A stretch of 64,000 bases of DNA from Jiangella sp. DSM 45060 (lineage in GTDB: Bacteria; Actinomycetota; Actinomycetes; Jiangellales; Jiangellaceae), in contig NZ_LT629771.1 in NCBI RefSeq assembly GCF_900105175.1, positions 806,001 through 870,000 of the forward strand, written 5' to 3'. A program made the position numbers and the translations under genes. Positions 42,608 through 43,432 of this stretch are shown piece by piece. The notes beneath the pieces are model-generated. The model did not search any database. It saw only the letters and a list, made by a program, of their open reading frames with translations, and was not told where the DNA came from. Numbering within the stretch: position 1 is the stretch's first letter; the number at the start of each line of letters is the position of its first letter.

Positions 42608-43270
42608 ATGAGCTTCCAGCCCCTGCCGCCGGCCCCGCCGCCGCCACCGCCCCCACCGGCCGCCCGCCGCCGCCGGTGGGTGTGGCCGGTCGTGGCCGTG
42701 GTCGCCCTGCTGGCGGGCGGCGGCGCCGGCGTCGCCGTCGGCATGAGCCTCGACGACGACGAGTCCGCGCCCGCCGCGCAGGAGTCCCCGGCCCCGCAAG
42801 AGACCGGCGAGGGCGGCGACAGCGACGAGCTCGAGCGGCTGCGCGACCGCCTCGAAGAGGTCGAGCAGCAGCGCGACGACCTCAAGCGGCGTCTCGACGA
42901 AGCCCGCGCCGAGCTCGACTCCGGCGCGACCGAGCCGCCGGCCGACGAGTCGCTCGAGTCCGAGCCGACGCCGTTCGAGGGCGAGTTCACCGACGGCGTC
43001 TTCACCTTCACCGACGTGCAGGTGCTGCGCGACTTCGCCGGCGACTTCGAGGTCCGGGCCACGGTGACGAACACCGGCGACGAGACCGTCGACTACGTCG
43101 ACTGGACGGCGACCGTCCTCAACGGCGGCGAGACCGTCTCCACTCTGACGACCTCGGCCACCGGGCTGGCTGCCGGCGACTCCGTCGACGCCCAGTTCAT
43201 CGGCTTCGACGACTACGGCGACTGGGACGCCGTCGAGTTCGCCGTCGACTCCGACACCAACCGCACCTAG
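42608..43270 (+). CDS. Membrane protein with coiled coil and exported FxLYD-like domain
   Basis: 220 residues. N-terminal PPAPPPPPPPPAARRR, one helix (about 25-46), a coiled coil (SDELERLRDRLEEVEQQRDD and following, about 76-105), then an exported domain FTDVQVLRDFAGDFEVRATV, TNTGDETVDYVDW, typical of FxLYD. Probably senses or scaffolds something outside. It is 12 bases after aztD and uses its AAGGAG, so co-transcribed, perhaps zinc-linked. Its stop codon lies inside the left end of the MITE. Confidence 0.65.
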   Translation: MSFQPLPPAPPPPPPPPAARRRRWVWPVVAVVALLAGGGAGVAVGMSLDDDESAPAAQESPAPQETGEGGDSDELERLRDRLEEVEQQRDDLKRRLDEARAELDSGATEPPADESLESEPTPFEGEFTDGVFTFTDVQVLRDFAGDFEVRATVTNTGDETVDYVDWTATVLNGGETVSTLTTSATGLAAGDSVDAQFIGFDDYGDWDAVEFAVDSDTNRT

Positions 43271-43432
43271 GGTGTGTCTCCCGGGTCCATGGCCTACTGC
43301 GCGACGCCCAGGCGGCGCCTCGCTGCGTTCTCGTCAGTCGCCATAGGCACCGCTATGATTCCTTCCTCGGCCTTGCGAGGCATCCACCTGGACGCCGCTC
43401 GCTACGGCCGAGACCCGGGAGACACACCCTAG
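43267..43432. mobile_element. MITE-like element, 166 bp, with 21-bp perfect terminal inverted repeats
   Basis: Left end CTAGGGTGTGTCTCCCGGGT (43267-43286, then C) is exactly reverse-complemented at 43412-43432. CTAG at both outer edges may be a target duplication. Inside, further inverted segments (CGCCCAGGCGG with CCACCTGGACG, GCCTCGC with GCGAGGC, CATAG with CTATG) let the whole element fold into one long hairpin. No coding capacity. The left end supplies the stop codon of the preceding gene. Confidence 0.8.

Follow-up and report, generated by a model that had tools for sequence, protein, structure and literature searches.

A probable IS5-mobilised MITE of Jiangella that restores TAG stop codons and carries a conserved tandem G.A core

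To evaluate a hairpin at positions 43267-43432 of a 64,000-nucleotide stretch of the Jiangella sp. DSM 45060 genome (the window), we compared it with its copies in the genus and beyond. Based on sequence comparison, it is very probably one copy of a genus-wide MITE that would be mobilised in trans by IS5-type transposases, uses CTAG as target with duplication of TA, rebuilds the stop codon at its insertion site and keeps its arms complementary. The locus comprises the following features, with strand given as +, - or none.
42608..43270, +: upstream gene of 220 aa with an FxLYD domain (NCBIfam) and, by eye, a coiled-coil-like stretch; not shortened.
43268..43270, +: TAG with which the upstream gene stops; TA comes from the duplication and G is the first base of the element.
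43268..43269, no strand: left copy of the TA target duplication, within CTAG 43267-43270.
43270..43429, -: MITE proper, 160 bp, given on its purine-rich, better folding strand.
43270..43287, +: left terminal inverted repeat GGGTGTGTCTCCCGGGTC, whose first 13 bases (16 with the CTA) are identical to one end of a 992-bp IS from another Jiangella.
43325..43376, -: conserved core, GCAAGGCCGAGGA...apical hairpin...GACGAGAACGC, with tandem G.A and single covarying Watson-Crick pairs.
43342..43357, no strand: apical hairpin of the core, CATAG...CTATG; its sequence varies and its pairing is kept across relatives.
43412..43429, -: right terminal inverted repeat, read from the sequence.
43430..43431, no strand: right copy of the TA target duplication, within CTAG 43429-43432.

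Sequence and folding agree with the perfect 21-bp terminal inverted repeats and whole-element hairpin described in the initial annotation: the stretch forms a near-perfect hairpin with 49-nt arms that are 78% complementary, the outer 21 bp, including CTA, being perfect. Folded as RNA, the plus strand reaches -96.1 kcal/mol (z -7.1; 0 of 200 shuffles as good) and the minus strand folds better still (-114.2 kcal/mol, z -9.5), as it does in DNA folding (-58.6 kcal/mol vs -51.5 kcal/mol for the plus strand). The ORF list likewise upholds the proposed lack of coding capacity, since ORFs crossing the element start or end well outside it. Both edges read CTAG, which had been taken for a possible target duplication. 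However, four copies at three sites (L013 with its orthologue L130, L097 and L098) read TTA/GGG...CCC/TAA, which is incompatible with a 4-bp duplication; the duplicated sequence is therefore TA, inside a CTAG target, and the element proper spans the 160 bp from 43270 to 43429.

The host genome (7.49 Mb, single contig) carries 17 full-length copies with 90-100% identity. It also has deletion forms of only 64-95 bp and a subfamily that has diverged. A covariance model of the core recovers 27 full cores in this genome; one of the short forms gives a further, weak match. Matches at E <= 0.001 were found in 10 of 12 Jiangella genomes, with only one weak match each in G005 and G008; copy counts across the genus are lower bounds, and full-length copies occur in at least seven of the 12 genomes. 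Across the class, the element has matches at E <= 1e-6 in 50 of 393 genomes, eight of which are Jiangella. The site itself is empty in all five comparable Jiangella loci (J. muralis, J. ureilytica, J. endophytica, J. aurantiaca and J. anatolica), the other two of seven loci, from Nocardioides(-aceae), matching over only 25-37 residues and not being comparable; an unoccupied CTAG at the exact insertion site was seen in none of the five. The element is thus short and non-coding, has terminal inverted repeats, occurs at non-homologous sites and combines a target duplication with an empty site, as suggested by its initial reading as a multicopy MITE, and it is neither single-copy everywhere nor a hairpin conserved at this locus as a terminator.

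Flanking sequences point to a high turnover, since only five pairs among 103 extracted elements have a flank common to two species, three of them with both flanks (two weak one-sided 68% matches excluded). At L002/L152 (both flanks) and L003/L147 (left flank), two species share a flank and differ in the internal MITE subtype, which may reflect either conversion of one copy by another or insertion into the site more than once. Three loci of G009 (L165, L166 and L167) have MITE-end pairs 254-274 bp apart and represent longer relatives with a different middle, and L070 (G000:C1:5722239-5722409) contains three short direct repeats, GGGTGTCACTCCCGG, apparently unrelated to MITE ends.

The target and the ends of the element link it to IS5-family insertion sequences, which we take to be IS427-like. 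A resident IS of 1019 bp (five copies) encodes DUF4096 and DDE_Tnp_1 halves and is assigned to the IS5 family by NCBIfam NF033580, over cut-off; the IS copies of G008 are its homologues. Both sit in CTA/GGG...CCC/TAG with TA duplicated, one copy having TAA on the right. Bases 1-16 of the element (CTA plus 13) are identical to one end of the 992-bp G008 IS, the other end of which shares fewer bases and differs from the element at several positions, and the ends of the resident 1019-bp IS are those of a related MITE subfamily, subfamily 2, not those of the subfamily in the window. A natural fusion of IS and MITE ends is provided by L234 (G011:C135:25383-25475), a 93-bp hybrid flanked by CTAG at both edges, in which 62 bp are 98% identical to the end of a 995-bp IS and the other side is a MITE end. 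The expectation of a parent IS elsewhere is therefore supported in part: matching ends exist in a Jiangella IS and in the hybrid, but the host genome has no IS with the ends of this subfamily on both sides, in that no end pair about 1 kb apart was seen by eye among the matches listed (two mismatches or fewer). In G011, 12 elements with both ends identical represent a recent burst; no DDE_Tnp_1, DDE_Tnp_4 or DUF4096-type transposase was found in this 170-contig draft, which may miss one. TA is present at neither edge in 19 of 72 copies and at only one edge in 17, which we explain as decay. An origin of the core from the interior of an IS was also considered and rejected, because a blastn comparison with 13 IS-bearing loci (E <= 0.05) gave no match to the core and matched the whole element at one IS end. 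We propose that IS5-family transposases of the DUF4096 plus DDE_Tnp_1 type would move the MITE in trans, inserting it at CTAG and duplicating TA, and that a transposase of this type probably moved the copy in the window.

The consequences of this target choice are visible at the upstream gene. As initially annotated, the left edge of the element supplies the TAG stop (43268-43270) of the ORF at 42608-43270. The accompanying suggestion that insertion trimmed the protein does not hold, as the proteins of the relatives end at the equivalent residue in J. muralis, J. endophytica, J. aurantiaca and J. anatolica (with TGA, TAA, TAG and TGA, respectively) or one residue later in J. ureilytica, so that insertion preserved an existing protein end. 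Insertion would thus leave the protein unchanged and place a large hairpin directly after its stop codon. With G as the first base of the element and C as the last, duplication of TA restores a TAG to genes that run into it from the left or the right.

CTAG is about nine-fold rarer in the window than predicted from base composition (18 sites, two of them those of the element, vs 158), and eight of the 18, those of the element included, are stop codons of coding frames. Stop codons were called with a codon-usage model trained on 30 window ORFs, and copies were counted among the 72 Jiangella subfamily-1 elements scoring above 132 bits, out of the 103 extracted. An edge TAG is the in-frame stop of a coding stretch in 39 of these 72 copies, and eight more have a stop within eight bases, the exact stop edges being balanced between left (23) and right (24). 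Background CTAG sites, from the window and the surroundings of the copies, are stop codons in 22 of 63 cases, and IS copies (five in G000, 11 in G008) have an edge stop codon in one of 16. Among 83 TAG edges counted after dropping five orthologous partners, 43 end a coding frame in frame, none out of frame, five face an opposite-strand gene and 35 have no clear gene; the corresponding numbers for 126 background CTAG edges are 27, 3, 21 and 75. The excess is strongest where both edges of a copy read CTAG (23 of 29 vs 22 of 63 in the background; Fisher p 1e-4), although part of it is ascertainment because selection keeps a stop that is in use, and it is milder over all copies (39 of 72). The element is best seen as sparing genes through rebuilding of TAG.

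The arms of the element change together. In an alignment of 66 of the 72 genus copies (leaving aside six G011 copies that equal L078 in score and ends), 94 cells have paired double changes vs 27.7 in shuffles, and in a hand-picked class-wide alignment the number is 171 vs 46.6. The latter comprises 29 of 31 listed elements, excluding L015 and L159, with L173 (masked stretch) and L189 (partial) never listed; a further alignment (A3) holds 27 of the 29. Both values lie above all 500 shuffles, which ignore kinship of the copies, and slid controls are far lower in both sets. All 18 end pairs are intact in 35 of 66 copies, and in nine IS types one end agrees with the other at 14-18 of the 18 positions. 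The clearest case is the orthologous site L130/L013, where the flanks of two species are 97% identical and four arm substitutions form two compensatory pairs. One more compensatory pair is found at L085/L005, where orthology is clear over the right flank and for about 20 bases on the left side; L085/L005, like L003/L147, has clear common flanks on one side only, and L010/L087 and L002/L152 show uncompensated arm changes. In columns 2-171, which hold the TA duplication outside the element, nine double changes occur, but so do 15 unpaired ones.

We consider it most likely that the arms stay complementary through template switching between them, an established mechanism in which, after insertion, one arm would serve at the replication fork as the template for repairing the other (quasipalindrome correction). 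Homogenisation of this kind, by which the arms of inverted repeats become complementary after mutation, is described in the available parts of two papers (PMC8604942, PMC8794818), the first of which also cites short inverted repeats of proteobacteria. Searches for literature that applies it to MITE ends listed none.

Alternatively, covariation of the arms could be due to selection on an mRNA hairpin, with no correction at the DNA level. Many copies lie behind stop codons and hence would be transcribed, and compensatory changes are common in REPIN hairpins, for which the accessible part of PMC3116915 discusses them under selection. However, the mismatches that RNA tolerates are not enriched in copies with a one-sided gene (18 and 9 of the 66), where G.U occurs seven times vs 14 for A.C; transcription enters from both sides equally, as shown by the 23 left and 24 right stop edges; and the paired changes reach the TA duplication outside the element. 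We therefore regard selection on mRNA as unlikely, though far from negligible, and probable template switching between the arms as the preferred reading.

Outside the genus, the best-matching part of the element is its middle, the core being shared, under different ends, by other families and classes of the phylum. Mean pairwise identity among 29 elements is 0.80 in the core motifs and 0.73 in the outermost bases, whereas the inner ends (0.51) and the apical hairpin (0.52) diverge more. The core model detects 11 of 396 phylum genomes (E <= 1e-4, strict filters, host included), three of which are outside the class and have elements with other ends. For a closer comparison we aligned 38 of 40 located motifs, excluding L183 and L270 (shifted or wrong register) and moving one end by three bases in eight other rows; the phylum rows are 13 of 25 non-own loci, less L270, and the non-viral rows came from homology searches yet needed the motif for placement. 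In these 38 cores the motif strands are antiparallel, with single Watson-Crick pairs between tandem G.A/A.G pairs. The central G.A tandem is present in 38 and 37 of the 38 rows; the tandem beside it persists in 34 of them and the third in about half. A G.A tandem was lost from four rows, and in three of these (L266, L269 and L278) complementary bases stand in its place. The single pairs swap between G-C and C-G (28/9), G-C, A-T and C-G (31/6/1) and G-C and A-T (27/5, plus others), and, if the three flanking pairs are counted too, pairing is intact in 98.2% of cells vs 86.5% when shuffled, with 23 double changes vs 5.0. Sliding by -3, the motif period, still leaves 79.4% paired, but yields only six double changes.

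The core also recurs in viral contigs. A strict two-part pattern, GCAAGGCGGAGGA-N15-45-GACGACAACGC, matched three contigs of IMG/VR, and all three loci form long hairpins (L260 9886-9962, L314 697-776 and L315 1320-1399; stretch GC 0.40, 0.62 and 0.33). Their ends are richer in AT and differ from those of Jiangella, and two of the three loci resemble each other. Because the motif itself served to detect the viral cores, its identity in them follows by construction, which does not apply to their hairpin form. The strictest form of the pattern matched one contig and other forms 0, 9, 23, 4 and 1, with some contigs recurring; clear hairpin elements were limited to the three strict-pattern contigs, as the six others of the nine-contig form are not such elements and, of the other 20 of the 23-contig form, only one (L326) has 40 outer pairs, and this one is without the full motif. 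No Rfam family fits the three viral loci. In phages, the element and the consensus core had no match and a 61-nt core gave only short matches at E 5. Separately, the consensus core matches 31 plasmid records (H2-H32) at E <= 0.01, all from Streptomyces. Matches of the 61-nt core to proteobacterial plasmids (20 records, best E 0.4) were discarded as chance, the four that were examined being coding-like and having no full two-part motif within 260 bases. A kink-turn was also discarded as a reading of the core, since by eye there is no 3-nt bulge before the G.A pairs.

The core could be conserved in appearance only, the arms evolving fast by template switching and the element having spread horizontally in recent time. 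The rapid change of inner ends and apical hairpin beside the better kept outermost bases and core motifs, and the recognisable core in other classes, are consistent with this explanation. However, compensatory swaps occur between intact G.A tandems (G-C to C-G in 9 of 38; G-C to A-T or C-G in 7 of 38), albeit as few lineage events, and a template-switch patch would have wiped out the neighbouring mismatches too. Survival of the G.A mismatches points to selection on the helix, and merely apparent conservation hence seems improbable to us. A conserved non-canonical helix with drifting inner ends and loop suggests a function outside MITE models.

A possible clue to this function is strand orientation, since, of 39 subfamily-1 copies from three genomes, 30 lie the same way round relative to the replication fork (binomial p 0.001, or 0.0017 without an orthologue). 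The bias was tested post hoc, taking dnaA as origin and assuming circular chromosomes with an opposite terminus, and amounts to 12 of 17 copies in G000, 9 of 11 in G002 and 9 of 11 on the dnaA contig of G001, the other contigs of which lack an origin and were left out of the counts. Subfamily 2 shows no bias (5 of 10). The bias speaks for a role at the DNA level, or for a cost that the folded strand imposes, more than for a role in mRNA, and a DNA-level effect could consist of either recognition by a factor or strand-dependent loss. Tentatively, and as one possibility that the sequences allow, we hypothesise that the core is an independent module, a rod of tandem G.A pairs that each have a covarying base pair beside them, ending in a free hairpin. 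Hairpin MITEs whose ends are unrelated would carry it through bacterial lineages, some of them low in GC, and as folded single-stranded DNA (or RNA) it may be bound by a widely conserved host or replication factor and could in this way outlive repeated changes of transposase.

Movement as single-stranded DNA by a Y1 (RAYT/IS200-type) transposase that recognises structure, not end sequence, would make the element REPIN-like. The arms covary while their sequence drifts, the structure of the core is the conserved part, and subfamily 1 is biased relative to the fork; but the TA duplication in a CTAG target as in IS5 copies, the common end sequence, the IS/MITE hybrid and the unbiased orientation of subfamily 2 make such movement very unlikely. 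That the hairpin is a conserved, non-mobile terminator or non-coding RNA of this locus is hardly credible, because this very stable hairpin directly behind a stop codon is absent here in five comparable relatives, is found in 16 other full-length places and has no Rfam family above the gathering cut-off (best, a long-hairpin miRNA model with 31.8 vs 197 bits), although the mobile element may terminate transcription as a by-effect.

A MITE with IS5-type ends is an already known kind of element. IS5-family MITEs are likewise short, non-coding and multicopy, with IS5-like ends and TA duplication in CTAG; here, however, the core is conserved above the ends and is common to elements with different ends. 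The Correia (NEMIS), ERIC and RUP elements are hairpins of roughly 100-170 bp that use TA targets and lie between genes, but their sequences, hosts and helper transposases differ from those of this element, and to our knowledge none has this G.A core. REPINs, which depend on RAYT transposases, are likewise mobile hairpins with compensatory arm changes; unlike this element, they have conserved ends and a variable spacer according to the accessible part of PMC3116915, whereas here it is the core that is conserved while the ends change from copy to copy, and both helper and target are of another kind. We found no description of the core in the open-licence literature, based on a text search for pieces of the core and searches by title for MITE, Jiangella-repeat and tandem-G.A topics, sequence in figures or supplements being outside their scope. 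In those parts of a prokaryotic MITE review (PMC10969869) that are open to a term search, the words actinobacteria, Streptomyces, stop codon and compensatory are absent.

For the biology of such elements, the proposed insertion mode would be a way to live in a dense, GC-rich genome, by using a target tetranucleotide that is often a stop codon and then rebuilding it. The compensatory changes at one orthologous site provide a natural setting in which to test whether inverted repeats are corrected by template switching. MITEs are usually seen as remnants of insertion sequences in which the ends are important and the middle is debris; in this element, it is the middle that is best conserved.
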